Source: Arthrobacter burdickii
Lineage (GTDB): Bacteria > Actinomycetota > Actinomycetes > Actinomycetales > Micrococcaceae
Reading direction: 5' to 3'
Length of the DNA: 64,000 nt
Assembly (NCBI RefSeq): GCF_030433645.1
Contig: NZ_JAROCG010000001.1
Span: 2,046,001-2,110,000, forward strand
Made by a program: the position numbers and the translations under genes. Of this stretch, positions 28,811 through 41,307 are shown piece by piece; the stretch's first letter is position 1, and each line of letters starts with the position of its first letter. Below the pieces are notes generated by a model that worked only from the letters and a program-made list of their open reading frames with translations, was not told the origin of the DNA and did not search any database.

Positions 28811-28831
28811 TGGACTCTGCGTGAGTCGGGG

Positions 28832-28904
28832 TGCCCTCGATAGGATTCGAACCTACGACCTTCTGCTCCGGAGGCAGACGCTCTATCCCCTGAGCTACGA
28901 AGGC
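28832..28904 (-). tRNA. tRNA-Arg (anticodon CCG)
   Basis: A 73-nt cloverleaf on the minus strand: acceptor GCCTTCG/CGAGGGC, D-arm GCTC...GAGC, anticodon stem TCTGC/GCAGA with loop CTCCGGA (anticodon CCG, reading CGG), T-arm GTAGG-TTCGAAT-CCTAT. The discriminator is A and CCA is not encoded. A -10-like TAAGCT lies about 40 nt upstream and a terminator follows directly. Confidence 0.96.
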
Positions 28905-28941
28905 AGACACGGGAACTCCCGCATCCGTAAGGGACTCATCG

Positions 28942-28990: not shown

Positions 28991-30499
28991 TCAGTAGCCC
29001 AGGAACGCGTCCGTGCGCACGCGCGGGACGCCGGCCTTGCGGACTTCCGCGCGGATCTCGCCGATGAGCTTCGGCGAACCCGAGACGAGCACCCTGCGCT
29101 TCCTGAGGTCCGGCACGGCGGCGAGGAGGTTCTCCGCATCAGGAGCCGGGCCCCCGTAGGTCCAGCCGTCGGGCAGGGCCGGGGACTCTGCGCCGGGCAC
29201 GAACAGCACCACGCGGGTGCCCAGGTCGGCCAGCTCGTCCCGGAACGCGATGTCCTCCTCGCTCCGGACGACGTAGGCGAGGACGACGTCGCGCTCCTCG
29301 CCACGCGCGGCCAGGTCCCGCAGCTGGCTGATGAACGGCGTCACGCCGATCCCTCCGGCTGCGAGCAGCAGGGGCACCGACCGGTCGCGCGGCAGGCAGA
29401 AATCCCCTCCGACGAGGGTGCCGGTGATGCGTGCCTCCCTGGGCAGTTCGAGGAGGGCCTTCTTGAAGGAGCTGCCCGCTTCCGTGGTCCGCACGCCGAA
29501 GGTGACCGCGGACGTGTCCTGCGGCGCGGACGTGATGCTGAAGACCCTGCGGCTGCCGCGGCCGTCGGCGTCGCGGTGCGGCATGCTGAGTTCCATGTAC
29601 TGGCCGGCACGGAACCGCACGGGCCGCGAGGGCTCGAAGACGAGTTCCGTGCTGGTCGGCGTGAGCTGCCGCGCGCCGGCGAAGGACAGCCGCACGCCGC
29701 GCCGCTGGCCCAGGAAGAAGGCCCCCGCGTTGCCCATGACCAGGGCGAACTCCGGGCCCAGGAAGACCGGGCCGATGGACAGCTGGAGGGCGAGGACGGT
29801 GGCCACGATCGCGGCGAACAGCCACTGCTGCCAGCGAAGCGGCGGCAGTGTGAGCGGCTCGGTCATCATAAAGCCGACCAGGAACAGGAGGGGATACGAC
29901 GTGAGGACCAGCTGCAGGCCCGCACCGGGAGTCATGCCGCCCTGCATCAGTCCGACGAGCAGGATGCCGATGCCCACGACGAGGAACACCACGGCCATGG
30001 AGAGCTTCCGCGTCCGGTAGAGGAGGAGGGCGGCGCCGACGGCGACGACGGGGAGCATGTAGGCGTTGGCGACCCACCATCCCGCTGCGCCCACTCCCAG
30101 CAGGGTCGCGACGACGGCGCCTGTCGCGGCGGGATTGAAGATGTGGCGCCCCCGGAAGGCCAGCAGGAACTTCGAAGCCCCTGCGGCGATGCCGGCCACC
30201 AGGATGCCGCCGAGGCCGGCCGTGGTGCCCGACGGGAACATGATGAGGAACAGGATCAGCCCCGTGATGAGCGACGAGTCCCCGTGCGGACGCAGCCGCA
30301 GGATCAGGGCCAGGAGCCGCGTGCCGATGATCGTTCCGCCGACCGCGGCGAGGAGGGTCCCGCCGAGTTCGGTCGGCGTAAACGCGAGGAGGCCCGCCAG
30401 CGACAGCACGAGGGCCTCGACGGTCAGGACCAGGAGCAGGGCCAGCGTCAGCCGGTACATGGTCAGGCGGCCCAGCAGGGCGTCGAGTGCTGTGGTCAT
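28991..30499 (-). CDS. RnfD/NqrB-like membrane protein fused to a ferredoxin-NADP reductase domain
   Basis: A 502-aa fusion. The N-terminal ~270 residues hold about nine transmembrane helices with the RnfD/NqrB-like GRHIFNPAATGAV. The C-terminal ~220 residues form an FNR-type flavoprotein: FAD motif RVFSIT, flanking FRAGQYMELSMP, and NAD(P) motif LLAAGGIGVTPF. It probably takes electrons from cytosolic NAD(P)H through FAD and passes them across the membrane. It overlaps apbE by 4 nt (ATGA). The next gene product is a flavin-binding lipoprotein, a likely extracytosolic acceptor. The other Rnf/Nqr subunits are absent nearby, so this is a reduced, fused version. Confidence 0.88.
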   Translation of the reverse strand: MTTALDALLGRLTMYRLTLALLLVLTVEALVLSLAGLLAFTPTELGGTLLAAVGGTIIGTRLLALILRLRPHGDSSLITGLILFLIMFPSGTTAGLGGILVAGIAAGASKFLLAFRGRHIFNPAATGAVVATLLGVGAAGWWVANAYMLPVVAVGAALLLYRTRKLSMAVVFLVVGIGILLVGLMQGGMTPGAGLQLVLTSYPLLFLVGFMMTEPLTLPPLRWQQWLFAAIVATVLALQLSIGPVFLGPEFALVMGNAGAFFLGQRRGVRLSFAGARQLTPTSTELVFEPSRPVRFRAGQYMELSMPHRDADGRGSRRVFSITSAPQDTSAVTFGVRTTEAGSSFKKALLELPREARITGTLVGGDFCLPRDRSVPLLLAAGGIGVTPFISQLRDLAARGEERDVVLAYVVRSEEDIAFRDELADLGTRVVLFVPGAESPALPDGWTYGGPAPDAENLLAAVPDLRKRRVLVSGSPKLIGEIRAEVRKAGVPRVRTDAFLGY

Positions 30500-31356
30500 C
30501 GGAACAGGGCTCCTGCGAGGGGGGCGGAATAGCGGGCGCGTCCGTCCGAGTACACCACGACGTAGTCGAATGTGAAGGCCTCCGCGAGCGTCGCGGGGTC
30601 GGTGACGAAGAGGGCCGTGCACAGTCCGTCGGCGGTCATGGCGTCCTCTGCGAGGACCCACGTGGCGACGACCGTGTCGACGCAGCGGCCGGTGCGGGCA
30701 TCGAGGATGTGGTGCAGCCCGTCGCCCCACACCCTGCGGTTGGACGCCGATGCGCAGAGCGCCCCGGAGCCCAGGCGGACCGTCCCGATGGCGGACGACG
30801 GATCGTAGGGATGCTCGAGGGCGACGGTGATCGCGCCGGAGCCGATCCGCCGCATATCCCCGCCGGCGTCCACGATCGCGTCCTCGTGGCCTGCGGCGAC
30901 GAGGCTCTCCAGCAGGAGGTCGACGAGCTGGCCCTTGCCGGCGGCACCGACGTCCAGGAGGGCCGGCTCCCGCAGGGTGATGCCCTGGTCCGTCCACTGC
31001 AGGACGTCGTCCCACGCGCGTGCCGGCGCCGGGTCCGCCGTCACGGCGAAGGAGTAGTCGGCGTCGTACCCCGAGTCCGCCAGCCGGTCACCGACGAGGG
31101 GTGAGACACCGCCGTCGGTGAGGTCGTAGAGCATCCGCAGGAGGCCGCCGAGCCGTGCACCGTGGTCCGGCAGGACGAGCTGACCGCCGTCGGCCGCGAG
31201 CGCTGTGACTCCCGAGTCGCTCCGGAAGCGCGAGTAGAGCCGGTCGTAGTCCTCCACGAGGCGCAGCAGGTCCGTTGTCTGCTCCGGTGACAGCGGCGTC
31301 GTGCAGTCCACGCGCCAGCGGGTGCCGATCGCGTCGAAGCTGAAGGAGTCGGTCAT
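30496..31356 (-). CDS. apbE: FAD:protein FMN transferase (ApbE)
   Basis: A 286-aa ApbE-family enzyme that attaches FMN covalently to Thr/Ser of flavoproteins outside the cytosol using FAD and Mg2+. Family landmarks are RFRSDSGVTAL near the N-terminus, LDVGAAGKGQLVD in the middle, AIVDAGGDMR and the C-terminal ILDARTGRCVD followed by AEDAMTADGLCTALF. No signal peptide or lipobox is evident, which is unusual for an enzyme that modifies exported proteins. The gene is 7 nt downstream of the FMN-binding lipoprotein gene and overlaps the RnfD-FNR gene, so substrate, modifier and reductase are encoded together. Confidence 0.92.
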   Translation of the reverse strand: MTDSFSFDAIGTRWRVDCTTPLSPEQTTDLLRLVEDYDRLYSRFRSDSGVTALAADGGQLVLPDHGARLGGLLRMLYDLTDGGVSPLVGDRLADSGYDADYSFAVTADPAPARAWDDVLQWTDQGITLREPALLDVGAAGKGQLVDLLLESLVAAGHEDAIVDAGGDMRRIGSGAITVALEHPYDPSSAIGTVRLGSGALCASASNRRVWGDGLHHILDARTGRCVDTVVATWVLAEDAMTADGLCTALFVTDPATLAEAFTFDYVVVYSDGRARYSAPLAGALFR

Positions 31357-31363
31357 GCCGGGC

Positions 31364-31972
31364 CTAGAGCCGGGCTTCGCTCTTGATCTTGCCGGTCGCA
31401 TCGTTGAAGCCACCGCTGGTCAGCGAGGACCCCGCCACCTTGTCGACGGAGAGTTCGTCGAGCTTCTTCCCGACGATGGCATCCGAGATGCCCCCCGCGA
31501 AGCGCCCCTGGTACTCCCTCGTGGTCGGGTTGTCGGGCTTCGGTTCGACCTCGACGGCGGTGACGACGTCGGCCTCGAGCGTGAGGGTCACGCCCACTTC
31601 CTCCGGCCCTGCGGGCGACTGGTAGGAACCCGTCGAGGTGTAGGTGCCATCCCTGTAGGCCTGCTCGCCGGCGGCGGCTCCGGTCTCCGCCGGCCCGGTG
31701 GCCGCCGTCTCCTCCGGCCCGGTGGTTGCGGGAGCATCCGCAGCGGCCCCTGCCGGTGTTCCGGCCTCGGCCCCCGCGCAGCCGGCGGCACCGAGGATCG
31801 AGACGGCGGCGAGTGCCGTCAGCACGCGCTTGTGTGCGGGGAAGGCGGTCCTGCCGGTCGTCCCGGGTCGGGACGTGCCGGACGTCGTGCCGGCGGATGT
31901 AGCAGAGGATGGGGCGGCGGATGGGGCAGCGGTTCTGTCAGCGGGTGTGCCGGCCGGGCCTGTTCTGGTCAC
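31364..31972 (-). CDS. FMN-binding domain lipoprotein
   Basis: A 202-aa exported protein: a long Thr/Ser/Ala-rich N-region, a hydrophobic stretch (VLTALAAVSILGAAG) ending in a lipobox-like GAAGC, an Ala/Thr/Glu-rich linker, then a single FMN_bind domain (DGTYTSTGSYQSP ... GVTLTLEADVVTAVEV). The ApbE target motif is DKVAGSSLTSGGF; the usual SGAT is AGSS, so Ser would carry the FMN. It is likely the membrane-anchored extracytosolic electron carrier of the adjacent redox module. GTG start supported by AGGAG 6 nt upstream. First gene of the operon, divergent from argS. Confidence 0.87.
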   Translation of the reverse strand: MTRTGPAGTPADRTAAPSAAPSSATSAGTTSGTSRPGTTGRTAFPAHKRVLTALAAVSILGAAGCAGAEAGTPAGAAADAPATTGPEETAATGPAETGAAAGEQAYRDGTYTSTGSYQSPAGPEEVGVTLTLEADVVTAVEVEPKPDNPTTREYQGRFAGGISDAIVGKKLDELSVDKVAGSSLTSGGFNDATGKIKSEARL

Positions 31973-32200: not shown

Positions 32201-33850
32201 GTGACTCCCGAAGAACTCTCTGCCGCTATATCCGCATGCCTGAAGGCCGCCGTCGAGGCGGGCGACCTCAGCATCGACCTCCCCTCCGAGGTGCGGGTGG
32301 AGCGACCGAAGAACCGGGAGCACGGCGACTGGGCGACGAACATCGCCCTCCAGCTCGGCAAGAAGGCGGGCATGAACCCGCGGGCCTTCGCCCAGCTCCT
32401 GAGCGACCGCCTCGCAGCGATCGATGGCGTGAAGAGCGTCGACATCGCCGGTCCGGGCTTCCTCAACATCACTCTCGACGCCGGAGCGGCCGGTGAACTC
32501 GCCCGCACCATCGTCGAGTCGGGACGCACCTACGGGGGCAGCGATGCGCTCGCAGGCCAGAAGATCAACCTCGAATTCGTCTCGGCGAATCCCACAGGTC
32601 CCATCCATATCGGCGGAACCCGGTGGGCGGCGGTGGGAGACGCGCTGGCGCGTGTGCTCCAGTCGCAGGGTGCGTCCGTGGTGCGGGAGTACTACTTCAA
32701 CGACCACGGCGCGCAGATCGACCGGTTCGCCCGCTCCCTCTTCGCGAGCGCGTCCGGGCAGGCCGCTCCGGAGGACGGCTACGGCGGTCAGTACATCGAG
32801 GACATCGCCCAGCGCGTCGTCTCCGCAGAGCCGGACATCCTGTCCCTCGAGGAGGCCGACGCGATCGAACGCTTCCGGGTGGTCGGCGTGGACTTCATGT
32901 TCACCGACATCAAGAAGTCGCTCCACGACTTCGGGGTCGACTTCGACGTCTACTTCCACGAGCACTCGCTGTTCGAGAACGACTTCGTCGGGGGCCTCCT
33001 CGAGCAGCTGAAGGGCTCCGGCAACCTCTTCTACGAGGATGGCGCCTGGTGGCTGAAGTCGACCGACTTCGGCGACGACCGCGACCGCGTGGTCATCAAG
33101 TCGGACGGATCGCCCGCCTACATCGCGGGTGACATCGGCTACTTCGTCAACAAGCGCAGGCGGGGCTTCGACCTCAACATCATCATGCTGGGCGCCGACC
33201 ACCACGGGTACGTCGCGCGCCTGAAGGCTGCCGCCGCGGCTCTCGGCGACGACCCTGACAGCGTCGAGGTCCTCATCGGCCAGATGGTGAACCTCATGCA
33301 GAACGGCGCGCCCGTCCGGATGTCCAAGCGTGCCGGCACGGTCGTGACCCTCGAGGACCTCGTTGATGCGGTGGGCGTCGACGCCGCGCGGTACACCCTG
33401 GCCCGGTTCTCCGCCGACTCCAACATCGACATCGACCTCGACCTGCTCACGCGGCGCACGAACGAGAACCCCGTGTTCTACGTGCAGTACGCCCATGCCC
33501 GGACGCACGCCGTCGCACGCAATGCCGTGTCCGCCGGAGTGGACACCAGCACCTTCGACGCCGCGTCGCTCAGCCACCCCACCGAGGGTGAGCTGCTGGC
33601 GGCGCTCGGCCAGTTCCCCGGCGTCGTCGCGCAGTCCGCGACCTTCCGCGAGCCGCACCGGGTGGCGCGCCACCTGGAGGTCATCGCAGGGACCTACCAC
33701 CGCTGGTACGACGCCTGCCGCGTCGCCCCGCTCGGCGAGGCCGCCGTCGAGGACGTGCACCGCTCGCGCCTGTGGCTGAACAACGCGACGCAGCAGGTCC
33801 TGGCCAACGGCCTGGACCTCCTCGGCGTGTCCGCGCCGGAGAGGATGTAG
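32201..33850 (+). CDS. argS: Arginyl-tRNA synthetase
   Basis: A 549-aa class I aminoacyl-tRNA synthetase charging tRNA-Arg. The N-terminal additional domain (Arg_tRNA_synt_N) is followed by the catalytic fold with the HIGH-like [11 protein letters not shown], the family's [13 protein letters not shown], a MSK motif ([16 protein letters not shown]) and a C-terminal DALR anticodon domain ending in [10 protein letters not shown]. The GTG start is probably leaderless. Gene order argS-lysA-hom-thrC-thrB is characteristic of Actinobacteria, and the stop is 2 nt before lysA. Confidence 0.97.
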
Positions 33851-38805: not shown

Positions 38806-39138
38806 TAACCGCCCAGGCGGAATTACTGCGTCTGTTGAAACGTGAAAGTCTCCAACAGGCATCGTGTGCTTCTGTTGGGCCGGCCGTCCTCTTCTTCAGA
38901 CCGCCGCGACACTGCAGGTTCCATCAGCAGTAGCACAGCCTCCGGTGTAGCCTCCGACCTTATCTTTGTGCGTGCGGACTTCTCCTTTCGCCCATCGACA
39001 TCCTCAGGCTTCCAGCACACCCGGCCTGCCGGATCGTCTCCGGCTCGGCTGAACCCCGCCTGCTTTGACCTGCGGCACGGGGCAAACCACCGCGGACCAC
39101 CGATCAGGTGGCCGCCCGACGAGGGGGAAGGATCCTTC
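38781..39138 (+). promoter_or_regulatory. rho promoter and long 5' leader
   Basis: TAAAGT (38781-38786), inside the end of thrB, is a candidate -10 that would give a leader of about 345 nt. A hairpin near the predicted 5' end pairs AGTAACCGCC (38804-38813) with GGCGG-AA-TTACT (38816-38827, two unpaired A). The rest is C-rich with few strong structures, as expected of a rut-like Rho-loading region. Long leaders allowing autoregulation are known for rho in other bacteria. The frame from an ATG at 38842 is open into rho, but the conserved protein begins at the GTG. Confidence 0.5.
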
Positions 39139-41307
39139 GTGACTGACACCACTGACCTGTTACCAGGTGTGGCAACCCAAGACGCTGAAGCAACCGGCGC
39201 AACAACTTCCAAGAGCAGCGGCCTTGCGGGCCTGAAGCTCGCACAGCTCCAGGCCCTGGCCGGCCAGCTCGGGATCACCGGCGGATCGAGGATGCGCAAG
39301 AGCGACCTCGTGTCCGCGATCTCCGACCACCAGCGCGGTTCCGCCGTCGCCGACCGCCCCAAGGTCGCCGCGGTCCGCACCGAGCGCAGCGCCGATGCAG
39401 AGCGTCCCGCAGCCGAGGCCCCGGCCGAGGCCGCCGGCGACCGCGCCTCCGACGAGCAGTCCGCTCCGGCCGAGCGCCAGCCGCGCACCCGGAACCGCAA
39501 CCGCCGGGCCGGCAGCGACGGCGTCGTGACCACACCCGCCTCCGACGCCGCCGTCGTCACGAGTGACCAGGTCGAGGCCCCCGTGCGCGACGCCGCTCCT
39601 TCGCGCGACGCCGCTGCGAACTCCGGCGACGGCGAGCAGCAGGACCGCGGCGACCGTGACAATGACCGCGACAACGGTGGCCGCAACCAGCGCAACCGCC
39701 GCAGCCGCCGCGGCGAGGACCGTGCGGACGTGCAGCCCGGGCAGAACGGCCAGCAGAACGATGGTCAGAACGGCCAGCAGAACGATGCCCAGAACGGGCA
39801 GCAGGGTGACGCCCAGGGCGACGTCCCGGCCGACCAGGGCGAAAGCCGCGGCGACCGCAACGACCGCCGCAGCCGCTCACGCAACGGACGCGACGAGGAC
39901 CGCTCGAACGGCAACGCGAACGGCGAGAGCCAGAACGACGCCGGGCGCAACGGCAGCGAGCGCAGCGACAACCGCGGAAACGGCGCGAACGACGACGAGG
40001 GCCGCGGCCGCAACCGCCGCAACCGCGCGAACCGCAACGGCGCCGCCCCCACCGAGGATCGCAACAGCCGGTTCCGGGACCGCAACGAGCGCAACGACCG
40101 CCGCCGCGGCCGCAACCAGAACCCAGAGGTCGACGACGTCGAGGTCACCGAGGACGACGTCCTGCTGCCCGTGGCGGGCATCCTCGACGTCCTCGAGAAC
40201 TACGCCTTCGTGCGTACCTCCGGCTACCTGCCGGGCCCGAACGACGTCTACGTGTCGCTCGCCCAGGTCAAGAAGCACAACCTGCGCAAGGGCGACGCCG
40301 TCGTCGGCGCGATCCGGGCACCCCGCGAGGGCGAGACCCAGGCCAGCGCACGCCAGAAGTTCAACGCGCTCGTCCGCGTCACCTCGGTGAACGGCAAGCC
40401 CGCCGAGGACCTGAAGGACCGCGTCGAGTTCGCGAAGCTCGTGCCCCTGTACCCCTCGGACCGCCTGCGCCTCGAGACGGATCCCAAGAAGATCGGTCCC
40501 CGCGTGATCGACCTCGTGGCCCCGATCGGCAAGGGCCAGCGCGGCCTGATCGTCTCGCCGCCGAAGGCCGGCAAGACGCTCATCCTGCAGTCGATCGCCA
40601 ACGCCATCACGATCAACAATCCTGAGGTCCACCTCATGATGGTCCTGGTGGACGAGCGTCCCGAGGAAGTCACCGACATGCAGCGGACCGTGAAGGGTGA
40701 GGTCATCGCCTCGACCTTCGACCGTCCGGCCGACGACCACACCACGGTCGCGGAGCTGTCCATCGAGCGTGCCAAGCGCCTCGTGGAGATGGGCATGGAC
40801 GTCGTCGTGCTGCTCGATTCGATGACGCGCCTCGGCCGTGCGTACAACCTCGCCGCTCCGGCGTCGGGCCGCATCCTCTCCGGTGGTGTCGACTCGGCTG
40901 CCCTCTACCCGCCGAAGCGCTTCTTCGGTGCTGCGCGCAACATCGAGAACGGTGGCTCGCTCACCATCCTCGCCACCGCGCTGGTGGAGACCGGGTCCAA
41001 GATGGACGAGGTCATCTTCGAGGAGTTCAAGGGCACCGGCAACATGGAGCTCCGCCTGTCGCGCAACCTCGCCGACAAGCGCATCTTCCCCGCCGTCGAC
41101 GTCAACGCCTCGGGCACGCGCCGCGAGGAGAACCTGCTCTCGCCCGACGAGGTCAAGATCATGTGGAAGCTGCGCCGTGTGCTGTCGGGTCTGGAGACCC
41201 AGCAGGCGCTCGAGCTGCTCACCAACAAGATCCGGGAGACGCAGTCCAACGTCGAGTTCCTGATGCAGGTCCAGAAGACCACCCTGGGCTCCAAGGACTC
41301 CGACTAG
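39139..41307 (+). CDS. rho: Transcription termination factor Rho with large disordered insertion
   Basis: A 722-aa hexameric RNA helicase/ATPase that ends untranslated transcripts. N-terminal domain LAGLKLAQLQALAGQLGI; then a disordered insertion of about 230 residues rich in Arg, Asn, Asp, Gln and Gly; then the RNA-binding cold-shock domain (LENYAFVRTSGYLPGPNDVYVSLAQVKK), P-loop SPPKAGKT (473-480), Walker B VVVLLDSMTRLGRAYN and the secondary RNA-binding Q/R loops. The insertion is characteristic of high-GC Gram-positive Rho and adds RNA contacts. A 24-bp repeat makes QNGQQND units. GTG start with GGAAGGA 7 nt upstream. A hairpin follows the gene. Confidence 0.97.
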   Translation: MTDTTDLLPGVATQDAEATGATTSKSSGLAGLKLAQLQALAGQLGITGGSRMRKSDLVSAISDHQRGSAVADRPKVAAVRTERSADAERPAAEAPAEAAGDRASDEQSAPAERQPRTRNRNRRAGSDGVVTTPASDAAVVTSDQVEAPVRDAAPSRDAAANSGDGEQQDRGDRDNDRDNGGRNQRNRRSRRGEDRADVQPGQNGQQNDGQNGQQNDAQNGQQGDAQGDVPADQGESRGDRNDRRSRSRNGRDEDRSNGNANGESQNDAGRNGSERSDNRGNGANDDEGRGRNRRNRANRNGAAPTEDRNSRFRDRNERNDRRRGRNQNPEVDDVEVTEDDVLLPVAGILDVLENYAFVRTSGYLPGPNDVYVSLAQVKKHNLRKGDAVVGAIRAPREGETQASARQKFNALVRVTSVNGKPAEDLKDRVEFAKLVPLYPSDRLRLETDPKKIGPRVIDLVAPIGKGQRGLIVSPPKAGKTLILQSIANAITINNPEVHLMMVLVDERPEEVTDMQRTVKGEVIASTFDRPADDHTTVAELSIERAKRLVEMGMDVVVLLDSMTRLGRAYNLAAPASGRILSGGVDSAALYPPKRFFGAARNIENGGSLTILATALVETGSKMDEVIFEEFKGTGNMELRLSRNLADKRIFPAVDVNASGTRREENLLSPDEVKIMWKLRRVLSGLETQQALELLTNKIRETQSNVEFLMQVQKTTLGSKDSD
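39742..39813 (+). repeat. 24-bp tandem repeat in rho
   Basis: Two near-identical 24-bp units encoding QNGQQNDG/QNGQQNDA and a third diverged unit (QNGQQGDA), inside the disordered insertion. Confidence 0.85.

Follow-up and report, generated by a model that had tools for sequence, protein, structure and literature searches.

A recurrent actinobacterial gene trio of FMN-binding lipoprotein, ApbE and RnfD-FNR fusion as a member of the NQR/RNF-like class

Introduction

In the NQR/RNF-like systems described by Meheust et al. (2021, eLife, PMC8238504), one protein joins a NqrB/RnfD-like membrane domain to an NAD-binding domain resembling that of NqrF; the authors proposed that NAD(P)H passes electrons one way to a domain binding flavin mononucleotide (FMN). 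The 127 such clusters reported come primarily from Actinobacteria and the candidate phyla radiation; for a cluster to be kept in the survey, at least one of its target genes had to show a signal or a lipidation site (PMC8238504). A complex of this kind was modelled by Huang et al. (2024, PMC10979944/PMC11334425), who describe the RnfD-type flavinylation site as lost. Here we analyze a stretch of 64,000 nucleotides (nt) from Arthrobacter burdickii (GCF_030433645.1, NZ_JAROCG010000001.1, positions 2,046,001 to 2,110,000, forward strand; referred to in full as the window), in which three consecutive minus-strand genes encode an FMN-binding lipoprotein, the flavin adenine dinucleotide (FAD):protein FMN transferase ApbE, and a fusion protein that joins an RnfD/NqrB-like membrane domain to an FNR-type one. 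The initial annotation of the window had taken this compact version to be undescribed, which did not hold, as the architecture was published in 2021 (PMC8238504) and modelled in 2024 (PMC10979944/PMC11334425). The trio is real and recurrent, and belongs to the published NQR/RNF-like class rather than forming a new system.

Rnf and Na+-NQR contain homologous RnfD/NqrB and RnfG/NqrC parts and a flavin transferase, but consist of several subunits, move electrons along a semicircular path, pump ions, and carry covalent FMN also on RnfD/NqrB. Extracellular electron transfer in Listeria (FmnB/PplA) resembles the trio in having a flavinylated protein outside a Gram-positive membrane, and differs in its membrane donor. 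It also differs in that the ApbE-like FmnB is extracytosolic and requires FAD export (PMC9973259). The MsrQ-like flavinylation systems, broadly conserved in Actinobacteria (Meheust et al., 2021; PMC8238504), likewise combine a NAD-binding domain fused to a membrane protein with an FMN-binding protein and ApbE; their membrane part is heme-based, whereas that of the trio is RnfD-like.

Results

The three genes were found on the minus strand where the initial annotation had placed them, as confirmed by coordinates and translations (Table 1), and their assignment as lipoprotein, ApbE and RnfD-FNR fusion was borne out by Pfam, family profiles, hhalign and fold matches. They are tightly packed, with 7 nt between the lipoprotein stop and the ApbE ATG, and with the ATG of the fusion overlapping the ApbE stop (ATGA). 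The host genome comprises 3.95 Mb, and the closest named relative of the fusion protein is that of Arthrobacter agilis strain 4041 (96% identity). With the NQR/RNF-like systems the locus shares a set of just two apparent redox subunits, an RnfD-type flavinylation site that is not conserved, and its occurrence in Actinobacteria. The genes for ApbE and the FMN-binding protein are clustered, the latter has a lipobox, the membrane domain is RnfD-like by homology, and the C-terminal PF00175 domain is predicted to be cytosolic. The locus departs from those systems in an FMN_bind score below the cut-off, in the missing PF03116 match of its membrane domain, in the acceptor Ser of an AGSS motif, and in an ApbE without recognizable signal, a point not discussed in the consulted portions of those descriptions. 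Because it has no PF03116 match, the window protein would be missed by the published Pfam rule alone.

We consider it probable that the trio constitutes a one-way electron-transfer module of this class, leading from NAD(P)H to an extracytosolic flavin, with the FMN attached prior to export. NAD(P)H would reduce FAD in the cytosolic FNR domain, and electrons would cross the membrane via the RnfD-like domain, which is expected to use a non-covalent flavin, to reach FMN covalently bound to a Ser of the membrane-anchored lipoprotein outside, from where they would be passed on to an acceptor. The FMN-Ser bond would be formed by ApbE in the cytosol, near the C-terminus of the precursor, and the product exported by Sec or possibly, in some lineages, by the twin-arginine translocation (Tat) system.

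For the membrane domain of the window, no PF03116 match was obtained, also not in a PF03116 scan of its own genome; among 29 fusions, the family matches nine at E <= 0.1, with a best value of 2.6e-7. Alignment with hhalign to 12 PF03116 proteins of RnfD type yielded a probability of 90 and an E-value of 1.7e-6 over 231 columns, and brought into register the FNPA motif and, in a later helix, FM.T. The 12 partners were drawn from 20 PF03116 loci of the phylum and taken for RnfD by their flavinylation site, which reads [DN]-x-x-[ST]-x-A-T after FNPA in 11 of them and DAIARAS in the twelfth. None of the 29 fusion membrane parts contains this motif, in line with what Huang et al. (2024, PMC10979944/PMC11334425) report; hhalign pairs the ATPL region of RnfD with WWxATPAML in fusions, or with ANAYML in the window. 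A search of the membrane-domain profile against the sequences of solved structures gave no match at E <= 1.

The FNR part is matched by NAD_binding_1 (PF00175) with 28.9 bits against a cut-off of 22 (E 1.9e-6). With the model of the fusion, Foldseek returned 275 matches at E <= 0.001, including NqrF (7qu3), and the best 50 of these 275 were, judged by their titles, FNR-type proteins or proteins containing such a domain. We take RRVFS to be the flavin motif, and assume roles in the same way for GGIGVTPF, VSGSP and the C-terminal DAFLGY. In 17 aligned membrane domains, Lys/Arg-rich loops alternate in a pattern fitting 10 helices (counted by eye) with both ends inside. This positive-inside pattern would place the FNR domain in the cytosol, in support of the inner-side location on which the initial annotation depended. 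The same annotation had seen no need for a further Rnf/Nqr subunit; none was recognized beside the trio, and a scan of the genome with PF03116, to which the subunit search was limited, gave no second subunit of this family other than one weak sub-threshold match elsewhere.

The lipoprotein of the window carries the lipobox LGAAGC, with the Cys codon at 31778-31780. Its domain scores 17.6 bits with FMN_bind, below the Pfam cut-off of 22, while in the lipoprotein family 31 of 32 proteins are hit by this model at E <= 1, with 9.2e-7 as the best value. In Foldseek searches the model resembles the FMN-bind structures 8p2a and 3o6u and RnfG/NqrC chains; as IscU/SufU and lipoyltransferase chains score the same or higher, these matches are supportive only. 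The flavinylation rule D-x-x-[ST]-G-A-[ST] (PMC12052999) corresponds in the window to D-K-V-A-G-S-S, in accordance with the earlier observation of AGSS in place of SGAT. The last residue, the predicted acceptor, is Ser in all 71 FMN proteins of the locus set described below, and lies about 20 residues from the C-terminus of the lipoprotein.

ApbE is matched above the Pfam cut-off (PF02424, E 1.3e-32), its family profile finds solved ApbE structures with a best E-value of 5.2e-27, and its identity, judged by sequence, is unambiguous. In a 31-row alignment the segments LHHILDARTG and ADGLCTAL (HH..D and AD...TA regions) are retained, with H215, H216 and D243 invariant and T247 conserved in at least 90% of rows; we take them to be the active-site segments. 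Part of this role is described in PMC12052999.

Genomes in which the membrane domain was found number 36 of 149 in the family and 51 of 396 in the order. Across the phylum the domain matches in 19 of 396 genomes; eight of these matches are strong (E < 1e-39), the 11 weaker ones could represent ordinary RnfD or other proteins, and one of them (G577) overlaps a full PF03116 match. The locus set comprised 81 loci, one per genome, namely 80 fetched for a part of the matches plus the window. ApbE is found in 73 of these, and both partners on the same strand in 71. The FMN protein is followed by ApbE within 130 nt in 69 of the 71, and the fusion starts between -60 and +150 nt from the ApbE stop in 63 of these 69; in the other six the gap is longer, or an open frame obscures the spacing. 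As the order FMN protein-ApbE-fusion recurs across dozens of genomes, the grouping is not due to chance.

Deviating arrangements comprise L159, with the order FMN protein-fusion-ApbE, and L163, where the FMN protein lies about 2.65 kb ahead of ApbE. In the AT-rich loci L164 and L165, ApbE is present and the FMN profile finds no match; the open reading frames of L165 encode an FMN-type protein with the canonical site D-T-V-S-G-A-T, so that L165 (4133-7033) represents a distant AT-rich trio with an SGAT acceptor and an ApbE without signal. The weak matches L167-L173 have neither partner by profile. One locus (L011) stems from a record titled Vibrio cholerae strain 35D; its fusion is 81% identical to the window protein, FMN protein and ApbE lie upstream, and the contig is probably a contaminated assembly.

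Export signals were assessed by the mean hydropathy over 14 residues. For the trio ApbEs, N-terminal extensions were cut 8 codons ahead of the FMN-protein stop, leaving 5-45 residues. A lipobox is present in all 71 FMN proteins with a permissive pattern (a narrower one missed L097, L099, L115 and L128), and their signals reach hydropathies of 1.54-2.47, with 66 of 71 attaining 1.7. By the same rule, neither a recognizable N-terminal signal sequence nor a lipobox was found in the window ApbE, nor a hydrophobic N-terminal segment in any of the 69 trio ApbEs, 10 of which were too short to score. As control, 30 ApbE loci were taken from the best-scoring places of a separate search of the phylum for ApbE, one per genome: 24 reach 2.0, L190 (1.71, doubtful) and L198 (1.76) are intermediate, and four are low. 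A PF03116 match was found in 27 of the 30 control genomes, including all 24 with a strongly hydrophobic ApbE N-terminus. A further set of 21 ApbE loci, of which 20 were chosen by hand from other places of that search and one is the second ApbE of this genome, contains none that reaches 2.0, the highest being 1.70; ApbEs without signal therefore also occur outside the trio. In family f28, which holds L165, seven of the eight other ApbE loci examined have a strongly hydrophobic N-terminus.

Since no export signal is recognizable on ApbE, whereas the protein it modifies is a lipoprotein, attachment of FMN in the cytosol before export is favored, albeit unproven. ApbE is known to modify a tag of seven residues, preferably a terminal one (PMC12052999), which together with the position of the acceptor Ser near the C-terminus makes modification of the cytosolic precursor chemically plausible; the FMN-bearing chain would then be carried by Sec. 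In the consulted portions of the literature on ApbE signals, Tat and cytosolic flavinylation, signal-less ApbEs with exported partners in Actinobacteria are not discussed, and supplementary tables may list signal predictions.

A smaller but appreciable chance is left to the same module being flavinylated outside, by a signal-less ApbE that reaches the outside along an unrecognized route, or by one whose signal is too faint for the test. Characterized ApbEs act outside, the FAD export needed for this is known in Listeria (PMC9973259), and because FMN-protein signals themselves go down to 1.54, a very weak ApbE signal could escape. On the other hand, no trio ApbE exceeds 1.36, in 12 of the 69 loci the ApbE frame closes no more than 11 codons ahead of the domain, and the sole other ApbE of the genome likewise lacks a hydrophobic N-terminal segment. 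Somewhat less likely still is that the flavinylated lipoprotein folds in the cytosol and is exported by Tat, to which the long n-region of the window lipoprotein and the twin arginines in the n-regions of 20 of 71 FMN proteins, e.g. RRVLT in several Arthrobacter, would be suited; however, the other 51 have no such pair, the window lipoprotein has KR, and at least some of the 20 pairs, read by eye, are off the normal Tat position. Tat as the general export route was rejected.

The trio is flanked upstream by the divergent argS (32201-33850) and downstream by tRNA-Arg and a gene with a DUF4129 domain, both protein-coding neighbors being assigned by Pfam. For the neighborhood analysis, 717 called genes around 74 of 94 loci were clustered (L004-L016 and L167-L173 excluded). 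The commonest neighbors are a divergent argS, followed by genes taken for lysA and hom, and what is presumably a HrpA-like helicase. Eight smaller clusters were scanned with Pfam, one representative each, and contain a P-type cation ATPase, a MacB/FtsX permease, a phosphoribosyl pyrophosphokinase, a histidine kinase, a zinc dehydrogenase, an AraC/PfpI regulator, Emfourin and DUF3145. The ATPase cluster comprises nine genes at eight loci and immediately precedes the trio in L138, L145 and L156, without being general; the gene at L156:1783-4479, the only one of the cluster scanned with Pfam, encodes a P-type cation-transporting ATPase and may indicate a link to metal handling.

Outside the window, the same genome has a second flavinylation locus (L249:3397-6739, G000:C1 about 962.9-966.2 kb). 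It encodes a membrane protein with an FNR part that appears ferric-reductase/NOX-like by eye (no family scan), two FMN-binding proteins above the PF04205 cut-off, and the second ApbE of the genome, also without recognizable signal; it is likely an MsrQ-like example. Within the window, ARAGORN called a tRNA-SeC at 39175-39273; this call is probably a false positive, lying on the strand opposite to a long called gene (38842-41307).

Table 1. Features of the trio and its downstream boundary in the window
Feature	Position	Strand	Remarks
FMN-binding lipoprotein, 202 aa	31364..31972	-	GTG start
Lipoprotein parts	31364..31972	-	long n-region, signal HKRVLTALAAVSILGAAGC, spacer, single FMN_bind-type domain
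Flavinylation motif DKVAGSS	31424..31444	-	predicted FMN acceptor: last Ser, 31424-31426
ApbE (FAD:protein FMN transferase), 286 aa	30496..31356	-	ATG start; PF02424
Fusion protein, 502 aa	28991..30499	-	RnfD/NqrB-like membrane domain + FNR-type FAD/NAD(P) domain
RnfD/NqrB-like membrane domain, residues 1-266	29702..30499	-	about 10 helices; motifs RGRHIFNPAA, FMxTEPLTLPP; no [DN]-x-x-[ST]-x-A-[ST] site
FNR-type domain, residues 268-502	28991..29698	-	RRVFS, GGIGVTPF, VSGSP, C-terminal DAFLGY
tRNA-Arg(CCG)	28829..28905	-	directly downstream; end of gene set

Discussion

Several observations weigh against the proposed one-way module with flavinylation ahead of export. The predicted fold of the membrane domain rests on profile homology, the structural model, which shows a helix pattern at a predicted local distance difference test score (pLDDT) of about 30-50, being too poor for use, and none of the fold matches of the lipoprotein reaches E <= 0.001. 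The Thr region of RnfD is aligned by hhalign with residues around 145 of the window fusion; Thr stands at position 145 in 16 of 29 fusions, the window protein having Asn, and this Thr might conceivably still be used. In the acceptor motif, position 6 is Ser in 70 of 71 FMN proteins and the Ala of the consensus in one, the first residue is other than Asp in many of the 71, and ApbE favors Thr over Ser as acceptor (PMC12052999). Signals on ApbE were judged absent with a simple hydropathy rule instead of a trained predictor. At L105 (4461-7389), the fusion is found near argS with a transporter-like gene in place of lipoprotein and ApbE. Finally, no gene cluster beyond the trio recurs across all lineages among the clustered neighbors, and none names an acceptor.

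That the fusion acts mainly as a ferric or other reductase, using the FNR part and the membrane flavin directly with the lipoprotein as an accessory, appears improbable. A VIT1 gene stands beside six published clusters (PMC8238504), and L105 keeps its fusion without partners at the locus; both partners are nevertheless located beside the fusion in most of the 81 loci, and no iron family was found among the eight neighbor representatives, no search having been aimed at VIT1 or iron families. Very improbable is an ApbE that acts on a different cytosolic target, with a lipoprotein lacking covalent flavin: ApbEs with cytosolic targets exist, as for the fumarate reductase of Klebsiella (PMC12052999), and the acceptor motif is atypical, but FMN protein and ApbE are tightly paired in nearly all loci holding both, the acceptor Ser is invariant, and the distant trio L165 retains the canonical site.

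The trio adds a hard-to-annotate actinobacterial branch to a minimal class of electron-export systems. The part worth following is the signal-less ApbE, with the question whether FMN can be attached covalently to a protein in the cytosol and the loaded protein exported afterwards. Tentatively, and with less than even confidence, we suggest that in much of Actinomycetota signal-less ApbEs load FMN onto their partners in the cytosol, which are then exported by Sec or, in a few lineages, by Tat. If true, cytosol-first loading would dispense with the FAD export that extracytosolic ApbEs require, and extracytosolic flavinylation depending on extracytosolic FAD would fail as a rule for a large bacterial group. 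The biology of ApbE would then split into a cytosol-first mode, in one-way NAD(P)H-linked systems, and flavinylation outside, in Rnf-bearing lineages.

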